Origin: Oidiodendron maius Zn
Taxonomy: Eukaryota > Ascomycota > Leotiomycetes > Myxotrichaceae
NCBI GenBank assembly: GCA_000827325.1
Contig: KN832893.1
Coordinates: 87,576-151,575, forward strand
Reading direction: 5' to 3'
Length of the DNA: 64,000 bases
This document shows, one piece after another, positions 763 to 64,000 of this stretch. The translations under genes and the position numbers were made by a program. Under the pieces are notes generated by a model. That model was given only the letters and a program-made list of their open reading frames with translations, did not search any database and was not told where the DNA came from. How positions within the stretch are numbered: the first letter of the stretch is position 1; each line of letters starts with the position of its first letter.

Positions 763-4024
<3,262 letters not shown>

Positions 4025-27680: not shown

Positions 27681-29218
<1,538 letters not shown>

Positions 29219-31011: not shown

Positions 31012-31413
31012 TTACAAGTAAGACTCAGCCTGGATTTCTACCACCATGCCTTTCCCACACAGTGCATTTGTTCCCACAGTCATCCATGTTGGTCGATGTT
31101 CTGGCCACCGTCTCCTCCAGATTTCCATCAGCAAAGGCTCCATGCTAACATCTGTTAAGAAACAGCGGATCCTGTGAGCCTTCCCGAGCCCTTCGGTTAC
31201 CCCAGCTACTTTGAGCGCCAGATCGCAGTTGTTGAAAGTCGATTCAATTTGTTCTGCTGCCGAATCAGGCATGCGGGCTTCGCTGTTGAAACCGGGCTGC
31301 CCAGACGCAATTACAAGTTGGGCCCCTGGCGGGAGGACGACAGCGTGAGAGAAGCCCGTTTGCTGGTAGTATTCACCTAGAAGGCCAGGGACTTGGAAAT
31401 ATTTTGCAGTCAT
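31012..31413 (-). CDS. RidA/YjgF-family protein (enamine/imine deaminase type)
   Basis: An intronless 133-aa ORF of standard RidA size. It has the family's early G-Y/F-S-H segment (QTGFSHAVVLPPG), VIASGQPGF in the position of the usual (S)GQ, a central helix with NCDLALKVAG, HRIRCFLTDV, and RPTWMTVGTNALCGKGMVVEI containing the RP-x-x-T-x-V-G/L-x-x-L block near the C-terminus. Members hydrolyse reactive enamine/imine intermediates to keto products and ammonia. It is divergent from the intact monoamine oxidase (gap 596 bp), and amine oxidases make imines, so a clean-up role in that pathway is a good inference. Confidence 0.88.
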   Translation of the reverse strand: MTAKYFQVPGLLGEYYQQTGFSHAVVLPPGAQLVIASGQPGFNSEARMPDSAAEQIESTFNNCDLALKVAGVTEGLGKAHRIRCFLTDVSMEPLLMEIWRRRWPEHRPTWMTVGTNALCGKGMVVEIQAESYL

Positions 31414-32009
31414 GTTTGAAGATGAGGGAATGGTTGGGAATTAGTGAATCTACTCCAAGGTAGGAACTCTTGTGCTCTAGCTGTGAGAGTTGGAGGGAGC
31501 GATAATAAGCTCCGGAAGACAGAGAGTGTGATCTTTTTTCATTCTTATGCAGCCGCCGGCTACGCATGGGATGGTCTGAGCGACATTCAGTTTTACTAGT
31601 CCTTGAAGTATATTAGGAGATTAGGAGCGAAGCCAGAATGCATGGGGGGGAAGAAAAGGATTGTAACCTCCGCAAAGACTGGGCTCTAATTTTGATTGGT
31701 TCGTCGCTGCCTTCCTAATTGGGATGAATCTAGACGATTCGAGCTACTCTTTCTGGAATCCGCATTCCTTGAACACGACTCTTAACGTTCTGATATCGAT
31801 ACAAAATACGAGACTTACATCGCAAGGGACTTTGTAGTCACACCCCTGAAGTACTCACAGGTGATTGAGGTGTTTCTCTTACCCGAGCCGCAACCCCAAA
31901 GAATCGCGGGGTTCAAAATGCCGCGAATAGACCGAGAAAACAATGTTTCTTTTCAGTTCATCTTTTCGTTTCTCGTTTGTATCAAATCCTTCTGTGACAA
32001 AATCCAGTC

Positions 32010-33413
32010 ATGTCGTCTCCTCAGTCGCCATCAAGTGAAGCCGTTGTTGATGTCATTGTCATTGGTGCTGGCTTCTCCGGGCTTGCAGCTGCGAATCAGC
32101 TTGTTGCTGCTGGTAAATCTGTCGTCGTCCTCGAAGCCCGGGACCGAGTCGGCAGGAAAGTTTACGACAAATTGCTCCCAAGCGGTGATATCATCGAACT
32201 TGGGGCTGAGTTTGCTGGTCCGTGCCAAGATCGTGTTCTCCAACTTGCTAAGGAACTAGATGTCGAGACATTTAAAACGTATAGGGTTGGAAAATCTGTC
32301 TCTTTCTACAATGGAAATCGACTAGTGTACGATCCTGAGGAGACAGGAGGCTATATACCTCTTGGGGAAGACGCTCTCAAAGATCTGGCAGTTGCCATTC
32401 AAACCCTCGATGCCATGGCCCAGGAATTGGACGTGAGGGTGCCTTGGAAGCACCCGAAGGCAAACATCTGGGACAGTATGACACTCACATCGTGGCTGAA
32501 GAACGCGATATCTGACCCTATGGCTCTTGATCTTTTGGTTATGCTGGCTCGAGCCTTGCTGTCTGCGGAACCTTCAGATGTGTCACTCCTTCAAACCTTG
32601 ACCTATATCAGCCGCGCCGGAAACGAAAGTACTCCAGGTTCTTTTCAAAGGCTTGTCAGCACCGAGGGGGGAGCACAAGAGGTTCGCTTCAGCGGAGGCC
32701 CACAGCTAATTGCAAAAAGATTAGGGGGCCGCCTAGGCGAGGCCCTCAAACTAAATTCGCCCATTCGTTCAATCACCAAACGAGGTGAAATATACGAGGT
32801 TAACGGCGAGACATTCACCGGAAAGGCGCGCAATATTATACTTGCGCTCTCTCCGCCGCTCACTGGAAGGATTAAATATGACCCTCCGCTCCCGGCCAGC
32901 CGCGACCTCCTAACACAACATATGCCCATGGGGTCAGTCGGCAAAGTAATTGCCATTTACAAGACGCCATTTTGGAGGGAAGACGGGTTGAGCGGTGGTG
33001 CCATTGGTCTCCAGGGGGTGACCATTCAGGTAACCTTTGATAACTCTCCGCGGGATGGATCTCATGGTGCACTAATGGGACTTATTGTGGCGAACGCTAT
33101 GCGTCGCTTAGATGGGAAGACAGAGGCGGAAATTCAAGCTGCTGTGGTAGAAGACTTAGCGACTTATTTTGGTCCAAAGGCAAGGGAAGTTGAATCTTGG
33201 ATTATTCAACGTTGGGCAAACGAGGAGTTCTCACGAGGTGGTCATTTTGCCGTTTGTCCGCCCAATGTCATGACCCAGTATGGCACAGCAGTAACAGAGC
33301 CAGTGGGCAATATCTATTTCGCCGGTACAGAAGCATCTCCATATTGGAGCGGTTTCATGGACGGTGCAATACGTGCTGGGGAGGCAGCCGCTGCGAAAAT
33401 CTGTCGGTCTTGA
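32010..33413 (+). CDS. Flavin-containing monoamine oxidase
   Basis: An intronless 467-aa gene. N-terminal FAD-binding DVIVIGAGFSGLAAA (about residues 14-28), EARDRVGR near residue 45 where a second Gly is usual (VGG), a GAEFAGP block, SEGGxQE-like STEGGAQEVRFSGG near residue 225, and the C-terminal FAD-contact motif IYFAGTEASPYWSGFMDGAIRAGE truncated here as AGTEASPYWSGFMDGAI. No signal peptide and no obvious C-terminal anchor are seen, so it is probably cytosolic or peroxisomal. It oxidises a primary amine to an imine/aldehyde with release of H2O2. It is divergent from RidA, and both may share regulation from the 596-bp gap. Length fits fungal MAO-N-type enzymes (about 495 aa). The substrate cannot be read. 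Confidence 0.92.
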   Translation: MSSPQSPSSEAVVDVIVIGAGFSGLAAANQLVAAGKSVVVLEARDRVGRKVYDKLLPSGDIIELGAEFAGPCQDRVLQLAKELDVETFKTYRVGKSVSFYNGNRLVYDPEETGGYIPLGEDALKDLAVAIQTLDAMAQELDVRVPWKHPKANIWDSMTLTSWLKNAISDPMALDLLVMLARALLSAEPSDVSLLQTLTYISRAGNESTPGSFQRLVSTEGGAQEVRFSGGPQLIAKRLGGRLGEALKLNSPIRSITKRGEIYEVNGETFTGKARNIILALSPPLTGRIKYDPPLPASRDLLTQHMPMGSVGKVIAIYKTPFWREDGLSGGAIGLQGVTIQVTFDNSPRDGSHGALMGLIVANAMRRLDGKTEAEIQAAVVEDLATYFGPKAREVESWIIQRWANEEFSRGGHFAVCPPNVMTQYGTAVTEPVGNIYFAGTEASPYWSGFMDGAIRAGEAAAAKICRS

Positions 33414-43746: not shown

Positions 43747-46624
43747 AATGAAGCCCTGAGAGTGAAAGTACAGAAGCCGAAAGGAATGGGAATTGAGCTG
43801 TTTGACTTAGAGGAAATGTGGTGAACCTCCGTCGCTTTATATGCTACTCACGGAATACTGTCTTGGTAGGGAAGAAGAGTACGCCGTAGTTCTGGTCGTC
43901 ACCCATGCCTGCAGGGACTAAGCATTCCCCATGCCCCAGATCTTCCCGCAAGAGAAGCCCAGGCATATACTGGGGTCGTGTTCAACCACAACTAAGGCCT
44001 CGGCAATCACCGTGATGCGGTCTGCATTTGAAGCGAAGCAGTCACTGACTCGTGCCAACCCACCGGAGTAACCTACGGAACGAATCATCTCCTGGTGTTC
44101 TTGTTAAACCAAGCCGAGCCAGGAATTATTCCGCATGTACTTCGTTCCTTTCCACTATCATGCCTCCGGGGCGGGCGCCCCACCGGAGCAACGACAGTCG
44201 AAGACAGAACTGCGGAGCATGCCATCGCGAAGACCTTGTGTCTAGTTAAGGGAAGCAAACTTCCACTCAGTAGGGAAACACAATTGTCAAGTCATCTGCA
44301 CCAATCTGTGCACTGGTCTCTAGCCGAGACCATAGTCGAAGTCCCACAACTAGAGACGCTATAGTTAGGAAACTTGCACTGGGAATGAGAGACTGGCGTT
44401 GTTTGTAGAGCGCATTGGTAGGCTTTCCAGCGAATGGCACGGGATATTTACCAGTTATATATTAGCGCAGCCAATAATATTTGCCCTCTCTTCGCACAGA
44501 CCTTGGTAGGAGGGAGCCTTGATGCCTCTCCTCAGCTTCCTGTACGCTACAGTCATGAAACCGAAAGCCCTCACGCTAGCAAATGTGCCTCCTACTAATT
44601 GCAGTTACCTGACTTGCACCAACCGGTGATAGTGCTGTATAGTACGTGCAAAAAGGGTCATAGGCGAACGGTCCTGGACTTGCGCCGATAACCCGATTTT
44701 AGTGGCGATCGAGACATTAAGGTCGCCAGGGGCGAGAGTACAGTAAGCAGTGGAAAGATATTCCCGCTAAGGTACAGTAATTCGTGCGGATACAATAGAT
44801 CCTTGACTGCACTACATCCTGGCTTATCCGATTCTACTGTATCAACCGGGGTCCCTTACCTAACCAGGTACTAATTTTTACCAATCCCTTTAATATACAG
44901 GTTGGTTAGATTCTAACCCAATCTCTTTGTTTCCAAAGGTAGACAAGCTATAAGAAAAAGCCCTTATGCTTGGAATAGTTACCTTTAGGTTCAAAACCTA
45001 TAAGAATCTATAACAGAGGGAAAGTAGCCAGGTAATTTTTATACTACAGGATAGCTTAGTAGAAACTTTTTTCTATAGCCTATTTCTTGGAATAGACGCT
45101 ACTATAGAGTCCGGAATTAAAGAATAGTTTCAAGAAATCAAGTATAGCTGCTTAAGATATACTATATTAATATTAAACTATAGGCTTGGCTGTATAAAGG
45201 AGCAATAATGCTACTAATCTTAGTCCTATTTAGAGTATAGTTATAGTCAAGCCCTTGCCTCGATATAAGAATCTAATTATATATTTAGTATTCTACTGCC
45301 TAGTCGATATATAATCAACTATGTTATTAGGAAAATAACAAGATAATATAATAGGTAAGGTATAAGATTAATTAGACCCTTGCCTAATATTGCTAGCTTA
45401 GAGATCTTTATACAGTAGATATACTAATTTTAAACCTAGGAAAGGTACATTCAGCTCAAAAGACTTTTGAGCCGAGCGGGTGTCAAGTGACTGAATGGGG
45501 AGTCACAGGAAGGTCACTGGTTCCTATATGGCATGTGTTCAGGGTTATATAACCAGACTTCAATTGCATATGAAGAGGCTGGCTCTCTTTTCAGGGACAG
45601 TAGAGTTCAGTCTTCCCTTGATAATTTTTTCGGAAAATATATACTTTATTACTTCAAACCTCAGGCGACCTATCAGCGAGGTCCCTTCAACCTTCCAGCA
45701 TCCCACCACATATACCAATATCCGATCAAATATATTAAGTGGCTGACTTAGCAGCAGCGAGGACCTAGCGAAGATTACGATCCCGAGGAGACACCCATGT
45801 GGAGGCTGGCGCATAACGACCCGTCCTGGGCGTGCGAGACCTGCCGTGCGTATGTATAGAGCGAGGTCAACGAGTTTGTTGACTGCCGTGCTGTCGAGAA
45901 GCACGCTGATTACGCCGAGGTCGATGGCTATGTAGTTGTGCACAAGGATAAATTCCAATAGCCAGCATGTTGCGCACGCTCTCTCCAACCCGGACGGAGA
46001 TTGGTCTCCTGTCAGGACCACTTGGGAGGCAAGTGTTATAGACCAGGTAGCCTAAGAATATGGGTGTTAAATATAACGACTAGTAGATAGATAGAGAGTA
46101 GTAATACCGGTGAGATAGAAAGCAAAGCTGGAGTGTTCTGAGTTCTTCCTACAAAGACTAGCATCCAAATTATCGCATTAAGTGTTGCAAGCAAGCGTGT
46201 TTAGTGGCCCACAATTCGGAGAATTCTCACTGGTAATCAATCCTACTTGTCAGATATCGATGAAAACCCAAATATTAAAGAATGGACAGGCCCCTAGTTT
46301 CCTCCAAAGGAGACTGGCACTGGTAGTGCGGGGATTTAGCGCCCACCATTTTTTTACTCCGAGGATTATGCGCCAGTGTGGATAGTGGTGGGGATGAAGG
46401 TCCGAGCCAACTCGACGATCTGGAGCTGCACATTCCAGTCTTCCGGATCTCTAGTATTAATATTTTCTATCTCCACGTATTTATTTCTTGATCTATGTTA
46501 TGCATTTCATTTCTATCAGAATCGGAAACTGAGATCTTTACCAGCAAGGACGACCCTCAATAGATCATAATTGCGGTGAAAACCTCTTTTCCCAAAAATA
46601 CACGACAAGCACGCATCCGCTACA
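43747..46624. other. Gene-poor stretch with a possible decayed GC-rich relic
   Basis: 44840-45440 is very AT-rich with CTATA/TTAG steps typical of RIP-like decay. 45752-46060 is GC-richer and, on the plus strand, reads as a coding-like stretch (EETPMWRLAHNDPSWACETC and, after a TAG, SEVNEFVDCRAVEKHADY) interrupted by stop codons; I cannot assign a family. No RNA gene was recognised. The final ~250 bp should contain the GH35 promoter. Confidence 0.45.
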
Positions 46625-48319
46625 ATGTCATCTCCAACCATTCCCTATCTCCGCAAGACCAAGACATCTAGCCAATTGATTGTCAATGGTAAACCCTTCC
46701 TCATGCTCGCAGCCGAGCTGCACAACTCCTCCCTCAGCGATGCCGAATACATGCGAACTGTCTGGCCTAATATGAAAGCCATGAATATCAACACACTTTT
46801 AGGGTCCGTGACCTGGGAGATGATTGAACCCGTGGAGGGGAAATTCGAATTTGCAGAATTAAATAAAGTTATCCTAGATGCAAGGAGCCACGACCTACAT
46901 CTTGTGTTGTTGTGGTTCGGCTCATTTAAGAACGCTCTAAGTACGTACGTGCCAGGTTGGGTGAAGACCGACATCAAAAGGTTTCCAAGAGTACATGTTT
47001 CAGAGTCCGGCGCTGTCACGAGAACCGAAGAGCTTCTATCACCATTCAATCCGCGAGCCTGGGAAGCTGATGCGAAAGCTTTTGCGGCATTGATGCGGCA
47101 TCTAAACGAGTTTGACGCAAAGTACAGCACGGTTGTCATGATACAGGTTGAAAATGAGACAGGACTGCTTGGAGATTCTCGCGACAGGTCAAAGATCGCA
47201 AACAAGCTTTTCAAAGAAGCTGTTCCAAAGGAACTCATCCAACATCTCCAAGCTCAAGGCAGTAGCTTACATCCAGAGTTCCACAAACGCTTTCCAGGCT
47301 TCCAGACACTCACTGCCGGCGCGTCAACATGGGAGGAAGCATTTGGCAAAGGCCCCGACTCAGACGAGATGTTCATGGCCAACGCTTTTTCGAAATATGT
47401 CGGTAAGGTTGCAGAAGCAGGAAAGAGGGAATACCCGATCCCCTTCTACACTAATGTGTGGCTCAACTTCGATGATCCAAGCCAGTTGGACTTACAAGGT
47501 CTGCCAACGACCGTCGGGGGTGGTGCAACGGCTGGCGTCTATCCTTCTGGCGGCGCAATCGGACGAACAATGGATCTTTGGAAATTAAACACACCGGCTC
47601 TCGATTTTATCTCCCCGGATCTGTACTTCCACGATTATGAAGAGGTGTGCAGACAATACACACATCAGAACCAGCCGCTCTTTATTCCGGAACAGCGCCG
47701 CGATGAGAAAGGTGTCAGGAGGGTGTGGCTAGCTTATGGCTCATATGCAGCAATGGGATGTTCACCGTTCGGGATTGACTCTGTACTGGAGATTGACTCA
47801 TCAGTGACACGGCATTATGGCCTTTTAGGCTCTATCAGCAAGATCCTGCTAGAGAAACAAGCCACATCGCCTGAAGACGTCATGGGGTTTTATTTCGACG
47901 AGCTTTCTGAAACGACGACGGAGAAGACCTGGACTCGTACGTTCGGCGAATTCAAAGTCATAATCGACCGTGCCTTTGTGTTTGGGAAGGCTGGTGCAGG
48001 CGCCGGGTTAATTATACATCAAGGCTCAGGGAAGTTTCTACTCGTTGGCTGGGGATTTAATGTTTCGTTTAAGAGCACGAAGGCGGGCGCTACATTCACG
48101 GGAATTTTGCATGCGGAAGAGAAGACAGTTGATAAGGATGGAAAACTGAGGACTGCGAGAGTGATGAATGGGGATGAGACGAGGAGTGGAGAGTTTTTCA
48201 TTATGCCTAATGATGATCCAGATTATGGGGGGTTTCCAATAGCGGTTACGATCCCGGCGAGGACGATGATTGCAGAGTGTACTGCGTATAGTGTTGAGGA
48301 GCAGGAAGAATATTTCTAA
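46625..48319 (+). CDS. GH35/DUF5597-type beta-galactosidase-like enzyme, intracellular
   Basis: An intronless 564-aa gene without a signal peptide. The N-terminal TIM-barrel opens with LIVNGKPFLMLAAELHNSS and NTLLGSVTWEMIEPVEGKF, typical of the bacterial-like GH35/GH42 group. The acid/base is in VVMIQVENETGLLG (about residue 178), and the probable nucleophile in QPLFIPEQRRD (about residue 358). The C-terminal ~170 residues match the DUF5597 beta-sandwich seen after this barrel (GEFKVIIDRAFVFGKAGAGA). It should remove terminal beta-galactosyl units from imported oligosaccharides in the cytosol. It is convergent with the Zn2Cys6 regulator (gap 162 bp). The intronless structure and bacterial-type domain order make ancient transfer from bacteria possible. 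Confidence 0.88.
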   Translation: MSSPTIPYLRKTKTSSQLIVNGKPFLMLAAELHNSSLSDAEYMRTVWPNMKAMNINTLLGSVTWEMIEPVEGKFEFAELNKVILDARSHDLHLVLLWFGSFKNALSTYVPGWVKTDIKRFPRVHVSESGAVTRTEELLSPFNPRAWEADAKAFAALMRHLNEFDAKYSTVVMIQVENETGLLGDSRDRSKIANKLFKEAVPKELIQHLQAQGSSLHPEFHKRFPGFQTLTAGASTWEEAFGKGPDSDEMFMANAFSKYVGKVAEAGKREYPIPFYTNVWLNFDDPSQLDLQGLPTTVGGGATAGVYPSGGAIGRTMDLWKLNTPALDFISPDLYFHDYEEVCRQYTHQNQPLFIPEQRRDEKGVRRVWLAYGSYAAMGCSPFGIDSVLEIDSSVTRHYGLLGSISKILLEKQATSPEDVMGFYFDELSETTTEKTWTRTFGEFKVIIDRAFVFGKAGAGAGLIIHQGSGKFLLVGWGFNVSFKSTKAGATFTGILHAEEKTVDKDGKLRTARVMNGDETRSGEFFIMPNDDPDYGGFPIAVTIPARTMIAECTAYSVEEQEEYF

Positions 48320-52602: not shown

Positions 52603-52699
52603 ATATACTAGTGGTCATCCAATCGAGTGCCTTACGAATGAGTGGGGGGGTTAGGACTAGACAGCGCGAACCACTAACGCTCTCATGATCACAGCATCG

Positions 52700-53130
52700 T
52701 ATTACCATACTACCTTACCCAACAAAATTATTAAAGTAAAGAATAGTAACAAGGCGTTACAGTCCAAAGACTCAGGAGTAAGGGAGAAAATGGGCAGCCA
52801 ACCTGATGAAAGTGGTGAGCCTGCGGGTATTGCTGCGATAGCCGATGAGTATGTGTTCTGGAGACCGCCAAGCCACTTCTCGGCATTGGGCTCGTATGGA
52901 CTCGAAGCAATGCTAGCGGAACACAGAATTGAATCGCTTCTTCTTGCGGGGTTCAGCACTTCGGGCTGCGTCATCAATACTGCCAAGGGGGTTGTGGATA
53001 AGGGTTCATTGCCACTACTGTCGAGGACGCCTGTGGAGATAAATCACCCGAGTCACACGAACTTATCATGACGAAGCTATTAATGGGACAGACTCACATT
53101 GTAGAAAAAGAGATGTTGATCGAGGCATAA
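52700..53130 (+). pseudogene. Fragment of an isochorismatase-like cysteine hydrolase
   Basis: Reading from about 52794 gives GSQPDESGEPAGIAAIADEY and LEAMLAEHRIESLLLAGFST followed by SGCVINTAKGVVDKG, containing the family's catalytic Cys. The frame then shifts at about 53005 (one base short in the GF-I block), and the C-terminal piece (TTVEDACGDKS, then THIVEKEMLIEA) ends at TAA 53128-53130 in another frame. The N-terminal third with the catalytic Asp is missing. It is a dead 3' fragment. Confidence 0.82.
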
Positions 53131-54702
53131 GGCAAGGTAAGTTCATTCACTTGATGTGTGATGTACTGTACCGGGTTACATACTATGTTCTTGTGGAATG
53201 TAATAGGGAGTTCTCTATCTGCATTAGGAGGGAGGCTTATGCTTAAATAATGAACAGATTTCAAAATATTCTTGGGATTATCGCCAGATTTGAGTTTACA
53301 AATTTTGCCGCCTAATACTTGGCCTTCCGTGTGGTACGCAAAGAATAAAATTCTCTCAGGTTTGCAGCATCTATTCTCATCATTTGAGTTCAGGCAATTA
53401 GAAATCAGAATATTCACTTCTATAAACACAATATATCTCTAATTGAGAGGATGATGGAATCCCGAGCAGAGATGAAATTTTGACAATGTAAGTGTGGAAA
53501 CGAGGTAACTCATTTCTTGTTCCAATTTGACGTTCTACCAAGAGCCGCAAACAATATATATGATCTAATTCACATGCCACGAGTGTAGTGGAGTGGAGTG
53601 TAAATTAGCAGATGTTAAGAATATAAAATAAAGATTAAGGACTTTCCTAATGTCTAGGTGAGCAATTGGAGGGACTGGTAGCTTAAGGAGGCTATAGAGG
53701 GAGAGGATATATAGAGTATTTAATACTAGAGGAGATAGAGGTGCTAGCGTCTAGTATTACAGTTGATAACAGCGATAATATAGTCGATTCTAAGGAGACT
53801 ATTATAGTAGACGTAGAGTAATAAGAATAGCTTTATTTTTAATACTAGTACTAATAAAGGAGGTTACTACATACTAACAAATATCAGAACGGCTACCCTC
53901 CGCTAAGGGGGGGGGGGGGGGTGGGGCGAGGTGGCAACAATATGCCAGTTTATACAGTATCCATGAACGAACTTATAGTTAACACTAGCTCTAAGGTATT
54001 TATGAATATCGCTGTGGGATGCATCCTTACAAACATACCATCTGTCCAGCTCATAAGCAAAGCCTAACATCACGATGTTATATATCATCTTGTTATGAGA
54101 TCTCCAAAATTCCGAATGTTGCATCTCGCTTACTGGGCTAGAGACAATCTAATTCTCACACCTCGCCACTCAATCTGCGAACCTACTTATCCAAATCGAA
54201 ACCATTGCTTTTCCCGTCATCCACGTTCCTCTTCTATTTTACTCAACTCCGCAGACAGGAATCATCCTACAGGGCTAGCAACAGGTAAATATTCAAAATT
54301 GAGGCAATGATTTCCTACAGGGGCGCATATTGGAGTGTCGACAATCTCCAAGCTTCAAAGCATGTCATAGTGTGCACATAATTATTCCGGAAAAGCATTG
54401 TCAAGCACGGCGACAAACACTTTACAATCTTCTGGGCAGTCGCAGCCTACTGTTATGAGCAATAACTGTGACTTGGGTGCAAAGAAGTGTGGCTCTTCAA
54501 TTACCAGTTATGTACTCTACATACCTATACGATAACTAGGAGACGATGGAATTCTTAGGAAGGGTCGTTGTATAATTACATCCTTACATGGATGAAAGAT
54601 GACACATTAACGCAAACATAGCCAAGCAGTCAAGCTGGTGTCAGCCCCACCTTTACGCCATTCCCCACAGACAGGGTTAGGGAAAGCTATGTTACGAGCC
54701 AA
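53131..54702. other. AT-rich gene-free DNA with a 15-base G run
   Basis: 53580-53880 is strongly AT-rich, poor in C on the plus strand and full of TAGAG/AATACTAG steps, as in RIP-decayed repeats. A 15-base G homopolymer lies at 53907-53921. Short ORFs on both strands have no recognisable product. Confidence 0.5.
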
Positions 54703-56445
54703 TCAGTCACTGTCAGAGATACTCAGTAAAGGGGCTATTTTTAGGAAGCTTACCGATTCCTTATATTCCTCGGGGTCACGACTCTCGATGGCTTTGAAGG
54801 CTTGCAAGAGCCTGATAGTGGTATAGCCGGCTTCTGTAAGCGCAAATTTCTGACCGATACAAATTCGCGGACCTCCGTTAAAGGGAAGGTATTGCCATCT
54901 GTTATTGTATAAGTTGTGTGAACAGACCAATACTGGAAGCGGCCTACCCAGGTCTTAGCGTCTCCCACCTCTCTGGCCTGAACACCTCCGCATCTTCGCC
55001 GTAGAAATCCTTGCGGCGGTGCATGGCCCAGACTTGGTAGATGATCTGTGTACCGGATTTGATGAAGATAGGAGATTTACCGACAGGCCCGCCCCCGACG
55101 GGAAGGACTGTGTCGGTCACGGCCGTGCGAGAGTTCATAGGAACCCTAGAACACAGCAGCGTTAGCTTCCATCGTTAGAGGTCAAATGTGCAAACGACAA
55201 TTTGTAGGTAAGGGGACAACAGGAGACCGTACACTGGATAGAGCCGAAGAGCCTCATTTAGGCAGTACTGGAGATACCTCATCTCCTTGATCTGCTCAAA
55301 GGACGGTGCGCGGTCTCCTAAGTGTAATACTTCGCTCCTAAGCTTTTGCAGCACATCTGGTCGGCGTGCTAGGGTGTACCACAGGTGGGCTAAGAGGCTT
55401 GCTGTTGTATCGCGCCCCGCTAGTAGGATGCTCAAAAGTTCGTCTTGGATCTTCTTCTCGCTACTCTCTGACATTGCCAAGTGTTCTAGAAAAACGTACT
55501 TCGACGAGGCTTGCACACTCTTCCCCCGCTTTGCCTTCTGCTCTAGAGTCCTTCTGACATAGTACTGTATGTATTCATGGATGAACTTGATACCATCCTC
55601 GTATTCCTGGTCTGGAAGGATGGCAGCCAGCTTCCCCACCCGACCTCGTATGCTCATCACACTCGTAGTGTAAGATAAATGTTCTGCAAACCTCTTACCT
55701 CTGTGTCTTGCTTCCCCTGTTCCTAATACATTAGTGCTTTGACCGAAAAGGAAATCTGTAGCTGTTAAACAAAGAGTCAGCATCTGTCTCTGATCAATAG
55801 ACCATGGGTTGTGGGGTTACCAGAGTCGAGAGTGAGCATGAAGAACAGTTCCTGGAGATCCACGGTAGATCCATCTCGGGGAATCCTAGCTATCATCTTA
55901 GAGGCATGAGTTTCAAAGACCTCTAGGTCGCCGACGAGAGATCGAGCGAAACTCGGGCGAAGTAAAGCGCGGCTAGCCTCCCACTCTTTGCCATCAGTGG
56001 TAAAGATGCCACGACCAAGTATGGGAGCACAAGAGTCCTTGCGCCTATGCGAGAACTCGAAGTCTCTGAACTTGGCTGCGAGGACTGTTTTAATATTTTC
56101 CGGTTCGCGCGTGACGATAACACGATCGCCCAAGACGAGTTGCGTGTAAGTATTCACGCCATTATTGACAAGCTCGTATCGCTGCTGTGCCCGAGACAAG
56201 AACTTACCAACCTTCAGAAGCTTGATCCCTTCGAAGAAGAGATCGAGGCCAAAGATAGGATCTCTATGGGGGTATGACACAGCTGGCATGCACCCGTTCG
56301 CCCTGCTAAATGCTGAGCGTCGATACGCTGTTACCGCACACCGGAAAGTGGCACGGAGGATGATCGCAATAAGGACAAGAACGATGATGACGAGAAAGCT
56401 CATCTGTAGGAATCCTGCAATGGCCAGCATCCTGGGGACTTCCAT
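54703..56445 (-). CDS. Cytochrome P450, CYP52-like (fatty acid/alkane hydroxylase type)
   Basis: Exons on the minus strand are 56445-55821, 55761-55233, 55145-54948 and 54898-54703, giving 515 aa. A membrane anchor lies at about residues 13-33 ([20 protein letters not shown]), so the protein sits on the ER facing the cytosol. Key motifs are the I-helix [15 protein letters not shown]-helix ExxR in [35 protein letters not shown], and the heme loop [17 protein letters not shown] with the axial Cys. The RPG-W junction and the others preserve these motifs. CYP52-like enzymes hydroxylate fatty acids or alkanes at the terminal carbon. It is the first of five consecutive minus-strand genes with lipid- or CoA-linked functions. 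Confidence 0.92.
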
Positions 56446-56906
56446 GAGAGAAACTAAACCTGACCAGGAGCATGTTGTAGTGTCAGCGGTTTATTATGTA
56501 GTTTGCGGCTGGTAGACGCTTAGGATCAACCGTAAAGAGAAGGTGGAGTTGGGAAGCGCAGGAAATCCATATCTAGCTAAATGGCTGGGCGGTGCGGCGC
56601 AGGTACAAAGCATAAAGCTCCACACTCGTCGATCTATTCAGTAGGAGCTCGGTATATTTGGCTGGTCCACTAACCAAATACAGGCATCGAATCAAGGAAA
56701 CGGGTGACCTTCATTCACGCGCTATAGAGTCAAGGTATAATATGGAGAGCATGATAATTCATGGCGTATGCACGCATGACACTCCTCCTGCCCGCAAAAT
56801 ATGCGACATGTACGACTTGGACAGGCACCGTACGCTACTAATGCTTCTCTTCTTGCAAAGCGTCTTTGGCATCTAGCAGTGCGCTGAGCTATATCTCTAG
56901 CCTCAT

Positions 56907-58076
56907 CTATAGTCTGTATCTAATCTTTAACCCAAGCCTCACGGCCTCACTGGCCACGATATCCGGAATCTCATCTTTTAATCTCTTGCGTGGGTTCCAT
57001 CCCAGATACTTGCGTGCCCTCTTGGCATGCCCCTTGGAATTTAATCCCCACGTTAGTGCCGCCACACCTAGCTCACGGGCCCCATCAAGAGTAATCTGTA
57101 TCACCTCCTTGGTCTTGATGAATCCTTGTTTATAGCCCTCCTCTGCAACTTGCTTTGAGACTTCACCCCAAACATGATGGCCGTTCTCCACCAAGAAGTA
57201 CCCTTTCGGACCAAACAGCTCCGTATCTAGCTCGCTCTTGTTGGCAATGATGGCATCGACAAACAAAGTGTATAGATTACTGAGATCATGTATATGAACA
57301 TTGCCCCACTCCGACAAACCTCTTCCAAATTGCGGGGCTTGTCCCTGCTTTAGCGTTGTTTCGGTCAGGAGATAAACTTGAATACTTCTCTGGTTATCGG
57401 GACCACGGCCACGGCCATATATAGCTGGGGGGCAGATAATCGCCGTCTTCACTACATCAGAACTAGCAGCAAGGACCAGCTTGTCGACGCCACGGTGCCA
57501 AGCTGTGTCTGGTAGTGAGGTAAGGTCTGAGACCTTGTCTAGATCATCGTATTCCGGTTGAGAAGGGGGTTCACCGTAGGTATTCGTGTCCCTATCTTTC
57601 CAACACAGAACGCCTGTCCCGGAGAGATGGAGCCAGTACCCAGGCTTCTCTCCGGTGTGCCCCGCGGCCAATCCTTTGGAAATGGCTTTCGCGGCCCCTA
57701 AATGGTCGGAAGAATCTGCTGTATCTTCGTGGCTCATGCTTCAGTATCTTATTGTCAATTGAACATTGGGAGTAACGTGTACCTATAACAATGTCTGCCT
57801 TTGCGCTCTCTTCCTCTAGTAGAGCAGCATTCTCGAGGTTGCCATAAACAAGACGGGCTTTAGGATATGCAGCAGCTACCATTGTGCCTTTTTCTGAGCC
57901 TCGAACCATGACCGTATATTCATATTCTGGGTGCGTTTCGTTGAGGGCATACAGGACATCTCCTCCAATGTAACCCGTCACCCCAGTGCTAGTAGGTCTG
58001 TTAGATGATTCAATTAAGATTGCGGAGCAGGGCCAGTTTGAGACGATATTTCTTACATGAAGATCTTTGGCGGCAT
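56907..58076 (-). CDS. Atypical/extended SDR (NmrA- or epimerase-like NAD(P)-binding protein)
   Basis: Exons on the minus strand are 58076-58057, 57988-57783 and 57724-56907, giving 347 aa. The tiny 20-bp first exon is supported by the junction, which gives MPPKIFITGVTGYIGGDVL with a perfect TGxxGxxG nucleotide-binding motif. A DSSDHLGAAKAI stretch, YWLHLSGTGVL, a CPPAIYGRGRGP block and VHIHDLSNLYTLFVDAI follow the pattern of fungal NAD-dependent epimerase/dehydratase-like proteins. The classical YxxxK pair is not obvious, so activity as an oxidoreductase is uncertain. Location is cytosolic. It sits between the P450 and the thioesterase on the same strand. Confidence 0.85.
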
Positions 58077-58768
58077 GTATTATACCCAGGAGAGGAAGTG
58101 AAAGGTTTTTTTGGCCCCGGGGGCTCAGGGGCTCGGGGAAGATTGGGTCGCGACAGCTAGCCAGCTAACTCTTTGATAATTTTCCGAGTTCCCTAACATT
58201 AAATGGTGTTATTTTGTTAATCCTTTTAGAAGTTTGCGTAGCGTTGCTTCCGGAAACAAATCCTTCCTTTGCGAATATCTTAAAGTCGGCCGTATTACCC
58301 TCTCGGCCTATTCCTTTTTGTCGCACTTCCCCATGAAGACGGCAGTCTTCCTGCATTTATATTTGAGACACTGAAACTTTCTGTCACGGGTGTCGGCCTC
58401 TGGACTCTGGATGCTCCGTACACATGATTTGGACAACACGGTTGGCGTCTGCCAGGGAATGGCGTGGCTAGGCCCATAGTCTGTCATTGCTAGACAACTT
58501 CGTACTCTCAGTTGCTGTTTGTTTCACTGTCGGGATGATGAATTACTCTACATGGGCTGCAGCCTGTCTCAGAACCTCCTAGCTACCTGCACGAACAAGC
58601 AACCACACTTCTGCGTCCTGACCTGTATAACGTGAGTCGTTTGAAACATACTAAAGCCACAGTCGTAACCTTAAGCTCATGGAGGAACGTGTGCAAAGTA
58701 GTTAATTTTACATAGTTGAAGTATGTAGAAGACCTGCCCCTAATAAATAATGTAACATACTGTAGGCC
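58077..58768. other. Intergenic DNA between the SDR start and the thioesterase end
   Basis: Upstream region of the SDR gene; no recognisable gene. A GC-rich GGCCCCGGGGGCTCAGGGGC stretch lies at about 58112. Small ORFs have no domain. Confidence 0.45.
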
Positions 58769-59317
58769 TCAGATTTTAGTTTCCTTGGATTTTATGAGAA
58801 GCAGCCGTGCATAAGCACAAACCACACCGGGCTCAGCCCCTTCCAACATCGCCGTAATCCACAACTTTCGCCCCTCCACAGAGCCCGCTTTTGCAATGAT
58901 GACCACGAAACTATTCACAAGTACCGGTCTTACATACTCCACATCCAGCTTGGCCGTGAAAGTAGACGTATTGCCTAGCACCCCGAAACTTGCTTTTCCC
59001 ATCACCTCATCGAGAAGCATGGCAATGATGCCACCATGGGCAACTCTAGGGTAGCCTGATAGGTCATTCCCGAGTGAAAATGCTGCGAAGACGGTTTGTT
59101 GAGAAATATTGACGATGGCAATAGGTGCTGTGCGGAGCAGATTTGGCCCTCGTAGGATGCCTTCAGTGACATTCAGCTTCGCAATATGTTGGGGAATCGC
59201 GAAGACTTCTCGACTCACTACAGAGGTGGGCGATAAACAGAGTTCCCTAGCAACTGGATGATGTTCGACAAATTCTCGAAGCGATGTGTCTAATTCCGCT
59301 TCCGGAGATGGAGCCAT
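58769..59317 (-). CDS. Hotdog-fold thioesterase (PaaI/THEM4-like acyl-CoA thioesterase)
   Basis: An intronless 182-aa gene. The hotdog signature is clear: YPRVAHGGIIAMLLDEVMGK with the HGG turn and the catalytic Asp/Glu region (about residues 92-111), then TAKLDVEYVRPVLVNSFVVI for the beta-sheet. The C-terminal strands end at KSKETKI. It should cleave an acyl-CoA to free acid and CoA. It lies on the same strand as the P450, SDR, desaturase and CoA-ligase-like genes, and could release or proofread a CoA-bound intermediate. Its start is 83 bp from the SINE insertion. Confidence 0.9.
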   Translation of the reverse strand: MAPSPEAELDTSLREFVEHHPVARELCLSPTSVVSREVFAIPQHIAKLNVTEGILRGPNLLRTAPIAIVNISQQTVFAAFSLGNDLSGYPRVAHGGIIAMLLDEVMGKASFGVLGNTSTFTAKLDVEYVRPVLVNSFVVIIAKAGSVEGRKLWITAMLEGAEPGVVCAYARLLLIKSKETKI

Positions 59318-59399
59318 AGCTGCTTTCGCGTGACGCGGTGGCAGAATTGTTACGTGGAAGACGAGCAGACCGAAAGACTTGGGTTCATACCAAGGAGTA

Positions 59400-60144
59400 T
59401 CTACGCATATTTATTATTATTATTATTATTATCCTCCGCAATGGCTAAGCCGCGGTACTTCTATACAATAATATCCTATATACAAAGGCTAACGCAACCT
59501 CTCGGAAGAATCCTCACTGATATGCATACCCCCTTGTAATACAGGCAAATAATCGGGAGGCCTAGGTAAACTCGTCCAGTGGCAACTCTGAACCAAACTT
59601 CCTCCTTCTCCCTGGGATCAGACCACTGTCCCTGCCTCTGGTGTCCAGCCCTGTCTCTCACTCAGTTCTGTTCCTAGACGGCCTCTGGGGGCTGGTCGCT
59701 TCGCTACTTGATTGGTCGCGGTTGTAGGGCCCTATCACCCTAGTCTCAAGCTCTTTGGTCGCGTATCAATGATTTGGTCTTCGTCGTTTCTAGAGGCTCA
59801 CCCCTCTAGAAAGGTAGGGTTTTGCCCAGGTTCTCGGTTAGGCGACCGCTGCTGTGGTATCCGGGAGCAGAAGCCGGGGCCAAGGTTCTCGGTTAGGCAA
59901 AAACCGCTGCTGTGATAACCGGGAGCAGAATCCGGGTTCAAGCTAGGCCTAGGGGGAGCAGTCCTAGGTGAACCAGCTAGTCATCTTCTGGAAGGCAACA
60001 GAAGAGGTGCCTAGAGCTGGATTCGAACCAACATCCCTCACATCACAGGTTTAAATAGGGTGGGCGAGACCTATTAGGTTCGATGATGACTTTTGGGACC
60101 CAGGCGCACGACCACTGCGCCATCCGGGCTCTACGCATATTTAT
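59400..60144 (-). mobile_element. tRNA-derived SINE with 15-bp target duplication and AAT tail
   Basis: The direct repeat TCTACGCATATTTAT occurs at 59400-59414 and 60130-60144. Between them, on the minus strand, a unit of about 715 bp starts at 60129 with GCCCGGATGGCGCAGTGGT, holding a pol III A box (60122-60111), and has a B box GGTTCGAATCC (60029-60019). The ends of this head (GCCCGGA with TCTAGGC) pair like a tRNA acceptor stem. The body has two tandem ~55-bp units (59828-59882 and 59883-59937), and the 3' end is an (AAT)n tail at 59415-59432. TSDs, tRNA head and A-rich tail together define a SINE. It has no ORF, so it needs a partner LINE. Confidence 0.85.
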
Positions 60145-60618
60145 AATGGTACAAGTAATTTTCTTGACTATGATGTGGGGTAAACTTATACGTAATCATT
60201 TGACTTAAATAAAGCCCGACTATATCAAATGGACTCACTTACCCCTAAAGCTGGAATAAATCAATTCCAGAACCCAACCACTAATCAAATCAAGCTAATT
60301 TTTATAGCAGGCGGTGGCCGCCTAAATACAGGTATTTTGTCTCTAGAATATTACCAATTTTATAAAGCTCTCTATCTCCTACAAGAGGACAATATCAATG
60401 AACTACGTCTTGTCTCTAATTTTAAACTATGGGAGTAGTTATCGTAATACCAGTTAATGTTGAAATGACCTGTACTCGGCTTTCCCCGCTTTCTGTATTC
60501 CAACAGTATGCAAAACAGGCCATTTTTCGCTGCTCTACACCTTACATCAATAGCTAATTTGAGTACCATCAATATGAACAGCCGCAAAAATACGCATTAG
60601 AGACATTCTACCGCATCA
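60145..60618. other. Short intergenic stretch with an unassigned 69-aa ORF
   Basis: A plus-strand ORF at 60229-60438 (MDSLTPKAGINQFQNPTTNQ at its start) is AT-rich and has no known domain. It might be a relic of a transposon gene or chance. Nothing else is visible. Confidence 0.35.
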
Positions 60619-62028
60619 CTAAAGTCCTCGACCTTTTGCTATGTGTAGAATTGCTCCCAACCACATCCTGGCAAGAGAAAATCGGCTCACCGATCTCAAG
60701 TTCATATTCGCAGTGCTCAGTTTGCTCTTCTTCTCCACAACAACCACCGGCGGCGTGCCTCTCCCATACAGATTCCTGAACATAAATACGCCCAACCCAT
60801 CCATGCCCTCACTCTCCTCGACAAACTTGCACTCAATGTGGTTGTTCCAGAAGGCGCGCATGAAAGGTGTCTGAGTATCAGCACGATAGTGCTTGCCCAT
60901 CACCTTGCGTATGGACTTGCTAGCTTCGACGGCGTGGTAGAAGGGGATTGTGGAGACTAAGTGGTGACAGACATGAGTGCTGATGATGTTGTGAAAGAGG
61001 TGAGTATCGATGAAACCGAAGTTTCGATCAATGGTGGCAGTGGCACCACGTGTGAAGGTCCATTGGCTATTCGTGTAGTGGGGAAGGGTGCCATCCGTGT
61101 GGTGAAGGAAGGTGATAGCCACTGCAACGTGAAACATGCGTTAATTAAGGATGTCAGCTAGAGAAGGGCAGAGGAATATACCAATCCAATGGTTAACCCA
61201 GAGATACGGGACCCAATAGTAAATCGCTATTTGCGCCCACCCGAAGTGCAAACTTCCCCACACTATCAACATCAGCATACATGTAATTCCAAGGTCAGAC
61301 AGCACAATCAGCGGCATCTGCTCCTTCTTAAAGAGCGTGCTATCCTCGCCAAAGTAAAAATGACTGCGTCGCGGGAACCCCGGCCCATATTCTTGGCCTG
61401 ATAGATTCGTAACCAGATGTGCCGGCCACCCGAAGACTTGGTAGATTATGCAATGCCAGAGCGTCACCAATGGTGCGTCTTCGCTGAGGTGCATGAAATC
61501 TACGGAGGTGGGATCCGCATCTTTGCCAAAGCTGTTCTTAATCCACATATCACGCGTCTGGGGAACAAACGCTGTATCATGCGCCATGTTACCTGTAGCG
61601 TGGTGGTGCCTAGAATGTGTAATGCGCCAGCTGTAGTAAGGAACCAGGAGGAAGGAATGCATAAGAAGTCCCATGATATTGTTTAGTCTCTTGCTTTTAG
61701 AGAAGGCACCATGGCCGCACTCGTGCGCGAGGATCCAGATGCCGGTGAATACCATGCCTTGCAGAATTGTGTATGCTGTCCAAAAGAACGTGCGCAGATA
61801 GATATTTGATACAAAGAGGGTGTGGCTAGCCATGTAGATGAGGCCTATGGCGTAAAAGTAGTCCCGGGCCGCATAGAACATGCTTCGAGTGATAGAAGGC
61901 CGAAAACAATGAGGTGGAATAGCATTCCGGATTTGATTTATCGTGAAGTCTGGGAGTTCGAAGATATTTCCACGGAGGTCGATATGATTCGACGTCGAGG
62001 AGGTGGTATCTGCTTTGTGCTTCTCCAT
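60619..62028 (-). CDS. Delta-12-type membrane fatty acid desaturase (or acetylenase/conjugase variant)
   Basis: Two exons on the minus strand, 62028-61182 and 61121-60619, giving 449 aa. ATG 62028 is the first ATG (a longer frame opens only with TTG). Three histidine boxes are present: HECGHGAF, HSRHHHATG and HVCHH, with NHWIVAITFLHHTD near the last. Hydrophobic segments lie between them as in ER membrane desaturases. The DFTINQIRNAIPPHCFRPS segment is the FAD2-type N-terminal mark. It would insert a cis double bond, or a triple bond in divergent members, into an acyl chain. A housekeeping copy usually exists elsewhere, so this cluster member may be a specialised paralogue. It shares strand and theme with the P450, SDR, thioesterase and ligase-like genes. 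Confidence 0.93.
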
Positions 62029-63161
62029 TGCTATATGCAATCCAACAAGCAAAGGGGTTGTTATTATAAGATCAAAGAGACAGGTAGGGAAAACCTTGAT
62101 TGATATTACCTTATTAATGGTTTGTAGAGCAGTGAAGCGACAATAAATTAAGTTTGAAAAGGGAGGTTGAGCGTCCAGGTCCCTCTTAGCGGTAAGCTAC
62201 CGATTATTCCAGGAATTCCTCCAAAACCTGGGCCGGCTCTAACAGATGAACATCTCGGGGAATACCATTTAGTATCCTATTAGAATGTTGTATGGCGACA
62301 TGTAACAGCCATTGGTGACTAATATACCGGGCATTCCTCCTCCGTGATCTACAGCCGCGACGTAAGACTCTCTGGAGGTACAGAAGTTTTGAGATGCAGT
62401 GGTGAGCAATCATGACCTAGATCACCGATTCTGCAAACATTGTTTCTGTCAGAATGAAAAGGTTTACTTCCAAAAGCGACCAGCACTGCACATCCAAGGA
62501 ATAACCTAAATCCTGATACTAGACTGGGTCCAAACTAGAGATTTCCTGGAACAAGACCTTGGTATCTGTGGCTGATTCCGACAAATCTTGGAGTGGATGA
62601 ACTCTAACTGCTAAGACACGACCAATTACTTTGGCTAGGCACAAGGAGGTGTTTCTACTGAAGCCCAGAATTGTCTGGTTTTGTGTGACCACAGCAAATT
62701 CGAGGATCTACCCGGTTCATGAGGCTGCAACAAGATTCTTGTTCTCCCGAAGACACTCTCGATACTGTCAAATGTTGGAGGACTGCTCATCCGAACTAAA
62801 TACAGTGGAAGTATTAGTTGGACCCAAGGAAATCTAATATCGTCCTCTAAAAATCTATGTCTAGTATCTCCTCTTTAATATATTGAGAGAGGTCTTCCAG
62901 TTGTGGATTCTCAAAACGAATCGAGGCATTTTCATAGAAGTTAATAATAGCTACACTAAAGGGCATCTCTTCCAGAGTGTACGGCCAAACACCGGTCTCT
63001 TTACCTCCAGGCGGCTGAGACGAAAGGGACGGCTCTGTTACAGGGACTATTAGAAGGTGTGATACTCGGTATAAACGATTTATAATATCATCTCAATGCT
63101 GGATTACGGTCAGCTCTTGTGAATATTGCTTCCCATTCTTTACTAATCCAATAATAAGGAC
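62029..63161. other. Intergenic DNA upstream of the desaturase
   Basis: About 1.1 kb without a recognisable gene; short ORFs on both strands have no domain. It should hold the desaturase promoter and the 3' end of the ligase-like transcript. Confidence 0.5.
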
Positions 63162-64000
63162 CTACTTTGGCCCATCCTCTGTAGGCCGCTGATCTACTAA
63201 ACCCATAAGCTTTCCAGTTCGTGCATTCAATGCCAAATCCTTAGCATCCACAAACTCCACTTGCAAAGGACAAATCAATCTTAGATCAACGTGCTGTTGA
63301 AACATTGGCCTTTCCTCCTTAAGCTGGGCCGCAATAGCCTTAGTCGCCCCAACTCGATCTCGTGGCTGGTATCCAATGCGGATGGTCAACGAGTCTAACG
63401 AGTCAATACGATTTAGTAAAAGTTGGATTCCGGCAATAGATGCGTCTGGGAGGGCCTGATATATGATCCTGCGGACATGAGAAACGTCTAAGGAGACAGG
63501 GCCAATGCGGGCCGACTCATTGTGACGCCCGAGGACTCTGAATAGTCCCTTGGCGTGGTCTACCCACTCTGCACGATCTCCGCATGGATATCGAATCACT
63601 GGTTGAAGCCGGCGATTAAGATTGGTTACCAACAAGCGGCCAGGGACCATTGGCTGCGTGGTAGGAACTGTGTCGTCGCCGTCCGGACATATTTCAAGTT
63701 CGACAAATGGGCGATTCGCTCGATGCAAACGCAAGTCAGTGCCTGAAACTGAATATCCAATAACCCCCGAGTCCATGCTACCATATACTAATGAGCGTAT
63801 GCGTGCTAGTGGAAAGGCTGCTTGCACTATTGCCTTCTGATCGTGAAAAAATGCCTCACCAGAAAACATGAAGGCGCGGATTTGGTCCATGGTCTGCTTT
63901 CGTGCTAGCAGATATTCTGCAAGTTGCACAACCTTCGTGACTGTGCCGAAAATAACGGTTGCATCTAGATCTTTCATGTACTGAATCGTGGTTGACGCAT
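63162..64000 (-). CDS. Phenylacetate-CoA-ligase-like adenylate-forming enzyme (3' part, runs off the window)
   Basis: The minus-strand frame is open from the window edge to the stop at 63164-63162; at least 278 residues are present and the N-terminal part is outside. Visible parts are YGSMDSGVIGYSVSG, like the Y-G-x-x-E motif of PaaK-type enzymes with D in place of E, VTNLNRRLQPVIRYPCGDRAEW with the GD adenylate-contact residues, and LFRVLGRHNESARIGPVSLD for the hinge to the C-terminal lid. Family members make an acyl-AMP and pass it to CoA or another acceptor. In this cluster it could activate a fatty or aromatic acid. The first ATG in view (63977) is probably internal. Confidence 0.85.
   Translation of the reverse strand, partial: ASTTIQYMKDLDATVIFGTVTKVVQLAEYLLARKQTMDQIRAFMFSGEAFFHDQKAIVQAAFPLARIRSLVYGSMDSGVIGYSVSGTDLRLHRANRPFVELEICPDGDDTVPTTQPMVPGRLLVTNLNRRLQPVIRYPCGDRAEWVDHAKGLFRVLGRHNESARIGPVSLDVSHVRRIIYQALPDASIAGIQLLLNRIDSLDSLTIRIGYQPRDRVGATKAIAAQLKEERPMFQQHVDLRLICPLQVEFVDAKDLALNARTGKLMGLVDQRPTEDGPK

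Follow-up and report, generated by a model that had tools for sequence, protein, structure and literature searches.

In a 64,000-bp stretch of the genome of the fungus Oidiodendron maius Zn (the window; C24:87576-151575, with positions below given in window coordinates continued past its end), we describe a row of genes for a PaaK-like acyl-activating enzyme, a delta-12-type fatty acid desaturase, a hotdog-fold thioesterase, an epimerase-like protein and a cytochrome P450 (P450a), with a second P450 gene (P450b) just beyond. With moderate confidence, we read these genes as a small fungal cluster of up to six members (54630 to ~67431) that has no backbone enzyme and would make an oxidised, coenzyme A (CoA)-dependent acyl product with neither a polyketide synthase (PKS) nor a nonribosomal peptide synthetase (NRPS). 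The PaaK-like gene, the desaturase and P450b would form the core, which the thioesterase probably joins as a fourth gene; for P450a and the epimerase-like gene, inclusion is by position alone.

Linked relatives on a second contig

The main evidence for a unit is that linked relatives are found at two loci with a changed order, and that the matches between these loci are confined to four genes. We looked for co-occurrence within the organism's own genome (45,896,833 bp in 58 contigs, C24 being 517,702 bp); the genome searches score the best candidates and the counts are thus lower bounds. For the PaaK-like protein we found at least four match pieces from two genes, its own and one at C33:120689-122064 (83% identical over the main exon). 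P450b has at least 92 matches (84 of 185 candidates scored), the close ones being its own and C33:115949-117945; among the matches listed, the next by E-value after the C33 relative is 27% identical. The best other match of the thioesterase (at least eight in all) is C33:62473-63012, at 74%. At least eight desaturase pieces come from four genes, namely the window gene, C33:118453-119684, C1:1331563-1332791 and C3:1031011-1032356.

We then studied positions 110001-130000 of C33 (170,724 bp) for linked relatives, which we mark with a prime. A stretch of ~6 kb holds P450b' on the minus strand and, on the plus strand, the desaturase relative and PaaK', and at both loci the ligase, P450b and desaturase relatives are within ~7 kb of one another. 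The order is P450b, PaaK, desaturase on C24 and P450b', desaturase', PaaK' on C33, with P450b divergent to the others in each case. This difference suggests that the three genes were kept together through rearrangement. When C24 (window 40001-85000) was compared with the C33 pieces at the nucleotide level, all eight matches (8/8) fall in P450b, PaaK, desaturase and thioesterase, while spacers and flanks are unmatched. PaaK' and P450b' are full, stop-free models and the thioesterase relative is a single open frame.

A rather unlikely alternative is that separate lipid-metabolism genes are neighbours by chance and that the likeness between C24 and C33 was left by an old duplication. The close linkage of the ligase, P450b and desaturase relatives at two loci despite the changed order argues against it, as does the lack, among the matches listed, of a further close copy of the ligase or P450b in 45.9 Mb. 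On the other side, the closest relatives of P450a and the epimerase-like gene are on other contigs, and the flanks include sugar-metabolism genes, which points to mixed gene neighbourhoods.

The four pairs differ in their divergence, given here as proportions of synonymous (pS) and nonsynonymous (pN) differences. The PaaK pair (358/437 residues identical) has pS 0.436 and pN 0.096, and the thioesterase pair (136/182) has pS 0.429 and pN 0.129. Because pN is below pS, purifying selection seems to act on both pairs; they also look equally old. Higher values were obtained for the P450b pair (345/506 identical, pS 0.810, pN 0.216) and for the window desaturase against the C33 pieces, which were compared separately (93/134 and 95/170 identical; pS 0.852 and 0.764; pN 0.201 and 0.302). 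It looks as if either the P450b and desaturase pairs are older or a later event made the copies in the PaaK and thioesterase pairs more similar.

A number of observations weigh against the cluster reading. Both loci share one genome, and simple duplication may account for some of the co-occurrence. No single history is common to the pairs: pS is ~0.43 for PaaK and thioesterase, but for P450b and the pieces of the desaturase it is 0.76-0.85. In its last exon, the window desaturase shares 69.7% identity with the C1 paralogue and 68.5% with the C33 relative, so that the C33 gene is not clearly its nearest kin; together with the unequal pS values, this complicates a story of a single duplication. 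The C33 desaturase relative has in-frame stops and a frame change (one counted stop may lie in an intron) and is taken as broken. PaaK', P450b' and the thioesterase relative are open, and so do not depend on a linked desaturase that is intact. On C33, ~53 kb and a PKS separate the thioesterase from P450b'. Among the at least 92 matches of P450a, the sole C33 row is P450b' at 31%, and the epimerase-like protein has at least 13 matches, the best other one at C8:456082-457140 (64-65%) and none on C33. Finally, a recent insertion of a short interspersed nuclear element (SINE) may disturb the thioesterase promoter.

P450a itself is most alike to C1:3610800-3612517 (61-70% by piece), with long matches of 48-53% on C5 and C7. 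The co-occurrence check suggested by the original prediction, which had been made from the sequence of the window and proposed a five-gene lipid-tailoring cluster, thus came out in favour of the PaaK-like gene, the desaturase, P450b and, loosely, the thioesterase when run within the same genome; P450a and the epimerase-like gene lack close relatives on C33.

Gene models and the SINE-like repeat

Open frames were joined by hand into gene models, with the splice sites likewise placed manually (Table 1). The five minus-strand genes P450a, epimerase-like, thioesterase, desaturase and PaaK-like are consecutive, have GT-AG introns and contain no internal stops; the gaps across the row are 461, 692, 1301 and 1133 bases. 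The full-length intact models and the family matches below bear out the earlier description of five consecutive genes of these broad families on one strand. The limits then given (54703..64000) capture the right gene row, although P450a ends at 54630 and the start codon of the PaaK-like gene is 571 bases outside the window. A set complete at five genes did not survive extension past 64 kb, where P450b, divergent to the row, begins 945 bases past the PaaK-like start. A first impression that P450b is a broken gene was rejected: its 43-base intron is short, lies at the site of a P450b' intron and preserves the frame.

Table 1. Features of the candidate cluster on C24 (window coordinates; NAD, nicotinamide adenine dinucleotide)
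Feature	Position	Strand	Description
P450a, cytochrome P450	54630..56445	-	517 aa; 5 exons; introns 59, 87, 49, 67 bases; 11-residue haem motif
NAD-dependent epimerase/dehydratase-like protein	56907..58076	-	347 aa; 3 exons; introns 68, 58 bases
Hotdog-fold thioesterase	58769..59317	-	182 aa; single exon
SINE-like repeat	59401..60142 with duplications; element 59413-60130	-	718 bp; in the thioesterase-desaturase gap
Delta-12-type fatty acid desaturase	60619..62028	-	449 aa; 2 exons; intron 60 bases; boxes HECGH, HSRHH, HVCHH
PaaK-like acyl-activating enzyme	63162..64571 (window end 64000)	-	447 aa; 2 exons; intron 66 bases; first exon outside window
P450b, second P450	~65517-67431 (extended window coordinates)	+	513 aa; 8 exons; Pfam p450 1.9e-58

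The row had also been described as free of unrelated host genes. Within the row we saw no protein gene unrelated to the set, but the SINE-like repeat intervenes and unrecognised frames occur in the spacer that separates the desaturase from the PaaK-like gene. This spacer (~1.1 kb; 62148-63092, minus strand) has many short open frames and may be a decayed gene; the frames were inspected by eye only, and nothing recognisable was seen.

By its structure, the element is a tRNA-related SINE. The head is tRNA-like (60008-60129; Rfam tRNA, E 0.0031), the tail consists of TAA repeats, and a perfect 12-bp target-site duplication is found at 60131-60142 and 59401-59412, the near copy ending 83 bases upstream of the thioesterase start codon. 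The genome search gave at least 43 matches, its own included (40 of 56 candidates scored). Among the matches listed, 11 other near-full-length ones are at 100% (rounded) identity, and because of this identity the insertion is probably recent. ARAGORN found no tRNA in the window, and we do not regard the tRNA-like stretch as an unrelated host tRNA gene standing in the row, since it is the head of a repeat with so many genomic matches. Elements of the tRNA-related type are reported from Aspergillus fumigatus (PMC5063351).

Enzyme families and the possible product

P450a matches Pfam p450 at 8.7e-59, and its nearest solved chains are LUTEIN DEFICIENT 5 and P450 BM3, both distant; those of P450b (CYP3A4, CYP4B1, BM3) are distant as well. 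The likeness of P450a to CYP52-type hydroxylases is putative, the sequence basis being the Pfam p450 match. CYP52-type P450s are alkane and fatty-acid hydroxylases (PMC5869400). They have the P450 haem motif in common with P450a, which has BM3 among its nearest solved chains; P450a differs by its linkage to a ligase and a desaturase.

The epimerase-like protein matches PF01370 Epimerase at 7.6e-8 (32.5 bits against a cut-off of 20.9) over the N-terminal residues 5-83 only. For the thioesterase, the match to PF03061 4HBT (2.5e-5, 24.9 bits) is above the Pfam cut-off of 20.6 and the nearest solved chains are THEM4/THEM5. Its best NCBIfam match, hydroxyphenylacetyl-CoA thioesterase PaaI, is weak (2.9e-4) and far below the equivalog cut-off.

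The PaaK-like protein matches NCBIfam PaaK over most of its length at 6.5e-12, a distant match of 44.7 bits against an equivalog cut-off of 646.3. A Pfam search at 1e-3 gave no match; in the PDB, one solved PaaK is matched (4r1l, 1.4e-4). On these profile scores, the protein is classed as a distant superfamily member only, below the level of PaaK equivalogs. Its stretches TGGTLGNPK, YPCGD and C-terminal RTGK are presumably adenylate-forming enzyme motifs. The phenylacetate-CoA ligases of the PaaK type are its nearest named relatives, weakly, and the protein described here is fungal. A scan of bacterial and archaeal genomes with a two-sequence PaaK alignment, which is insensitive (two close sequences, two short patterns), gave 233 pattern matches and no confirmed relatives.

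Exon 1 of the desaturase matches PF00487 FA_desaturase at 3.4e-12 (47.1 bits against a cut-off of 29.7), exon 2 alone matches at 9.3e-5, below the cut-off, and the alignment has no match in the PDB at 1e-3. With the FAD2-type (delta-12) family the enzyme shares the three histidine boxes and the FA_desaturase domain. It is not the sole delta-12-type desaturase, a condition under which the original prediction would have been given up: the C1 and C3 genes have open frames and the boxes HECGH, HxxHH and HVxHH. Over the whole length, the window enzyme is identical to the C1 protein at 257/446 residues (58%) and to the C3 protein at 181/407; the codon comparison with the C1 paralogue gives 244/386 identical, pS 0.725 and pN 0.261. 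The C3 gene is the putative housekeeping delta-12 desaturase. The residue after the second box is H in the window desaturase (HSRHHH) and K in the C1, C3 and C33 relatives. FAD2 derivatives include acetylenases and the Claviceps oleate hydroxylase CpFAH; the predicted product of the window enzyme could be of any such type, and the enzyme may be a hydroxylase or an acetylenase instead of a desaturase.

Based on these families, a pathway can be proposed in which substrate, step order and product are all predictions. The PaaK-like ligase would adenylate a carboxylic acid and convert it to a CoA ester, and the desaturase (or a hydroxylase or acetylenase derived from one) would modify an oleoyl- or linoleoyl-type chain in a membrane lipid. 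The P450s would hydroxylate, the epimerase-like protein would alter a redox or stereo centre, and the thioesterase would release or edit the CoA ester. The chain of activation, desaturation, hydroxylation and release drawn in the original prediction is therefore possible as drawn.

The acid activated by the ligase may, however, be aromatic and not fatty. In this somewhat unlikely alternative, the substrate of the core is a small carboxylic acid, aromatic or otherwise, from which the PaaK-like enzyme makes an aryl-CoA that P450b oxidises and the hotdog enzyme hydrolyses, while the desaturase merely lies nearby or joins a fatty acyl group to a mixed product. The best matches of the ligase are indeed phenylacetate-CoA ligases, the weak best NCBIfam match of the thioesterase is PaaI, and of the C33 relatives the desaturase is broken but those of the ligase, P450b and the thioesterase have open frames. 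Yet the ligase and thioesterase matches are far below the equivalog cut-offs, the window desaturase is intact, and a desaturase relative stands beside the ligase at both loci.

The absence of visible PKS or NRPS genes, noted before for the window, holds for the whole of C24: none of 98 ketosynthase (PF00109) and none of 97 PP-binding carrier-protein (PF00550) matches in the genome are on this contig, and both profiles have matches on many others. The PKS on C33 (81656-86068), recognised by a ketosynthase match and two to carrier proteins, has the thioesterase relative on one side and the PaaK'/P450b' locus on the other. It is ~19 and ~30 kb from the nearest cluster relatives and we do not call it part of the system. 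On the same contig, an acyl-CoA dehydrogenase adjoins the thioesterase relative (L054 453-1359, C33 ~61.4-62.3 kb), and a fungal-specific transcription factor is encoded. A genome search with the acyl-CoA dehydrogenase gave none on C24 among at least 16 matches listed.

A polyyne was one of the products suggested at the outset. Characterised bacterial polyyne clusters are described as having seven common genes, namely JamA, JamB, JamC, two more desaturases, a thioesterase and a rubredoxin, the last with exceptions; in 10 actinobacterial genomes, a P450 replaces thioesterase and rubredoxin in the polyyne cluster (PMC8406139). Like the C24 set, the clusters for caryoynencin, cepacin and protegencin combine an acid-activating enzyme, a desaturase and a thioesterase (PMC8406139). 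This likeness in kind favours a fungal polyyne (acetylenic fatty acid) pathway that works as the bacterial clusters do. Such a pathway is nonetheless very unlikely. The bacterial clusters combine a fatty acyl-AMP (adenosine monophosphate) ligase (JamA) and its carrier protein with three desaturases and, in most cases, a rubredoxin, as described in the same source. In contrast, the C24 ligase is PaaK-like, as judged by profile matches, the 15 PF00487 matches of the genome include one place on C24, that of the single intact desaturase, and a JamC-type carrier protein is missing from the contig by the PF00550 search; the 4HBT protein does supply a thioesterase. With one desaturase and no carrier-protein match on C24, a bacterial-type polyyne cluster is not supported.

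The cluster interpretation thus stands as to the likely grouping of the genes, the lack of PKS and NRPS matches on C24 and the presence of an extra delta-12-type desaturase, but neither as to polyynes by bacterial logic nor as to co-occurrence of P450a and the epimerase-like gene. In a limited literature search, we found no published description of this gene set, and a basidiomycete polyyne paper of 2020 presents finding the biosynthesis genes as still future work (PMC7692509).

Our tentative and, for now, doubtful extension of the cluster reading is an undescribed kind of fungal pathway, in which a PaaK-like ligase, an FAD2-derived enzyme and two P450s would turn a fatty acid of the membrane straight into an acetylenic, hydroxylated or aryl-lipid natural product, and in which neither a PKS or NRPS nor a carrier protein would take part. 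Another copy of the cluster, in partial decay, would survive in the same genome. Because backbone enzymes are the usual starting point of cluster-finding tools, fatty-acid pathways with tailoring enzymes only are easily missed. The PaaK-like, P450b and desaturase relatives at two loci offer a concrete, searchable signature for such fungal pathways.

Neighbouring genes

Genes of the beta-galactosidase type seem to flank the cluster on both sides as divergent pairs: window 763-4024 and 46580-48319 on one side, L011 9528-10000, L012 2-1387 and L012 2377-5397 on the other (L011 and L012 are stretches of the C24 neighbourhood outside the window). Window 46580-48316 has a GH35/DUF5597 match and L012 2377-5397 a GH2 match. 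L012 2-922 has no Pfam match at 0.01, its likeness to beta-galactosidase being by eye, and window 763-4024 is a putative gene of this type. Between P450b and the beta-galactosidase genes, a remnant resembling a Tc1/mariner-type transposase was seen by eye (L011 7114-8124).

Near P450a, the window holds a partial isochorismatase domain (52661-53071, plus strand; profile positions 86-138/175), probably a gene remnant, and a sugar transporter gene lies on this side of the cluster. Further away, two amine-oxidase-like genes of the flavin adenine dinucleotide (FAD) type (27681-29218 and 31998-33413) have a RidA-like gene between them (31012-31440), all three recognised by eye.

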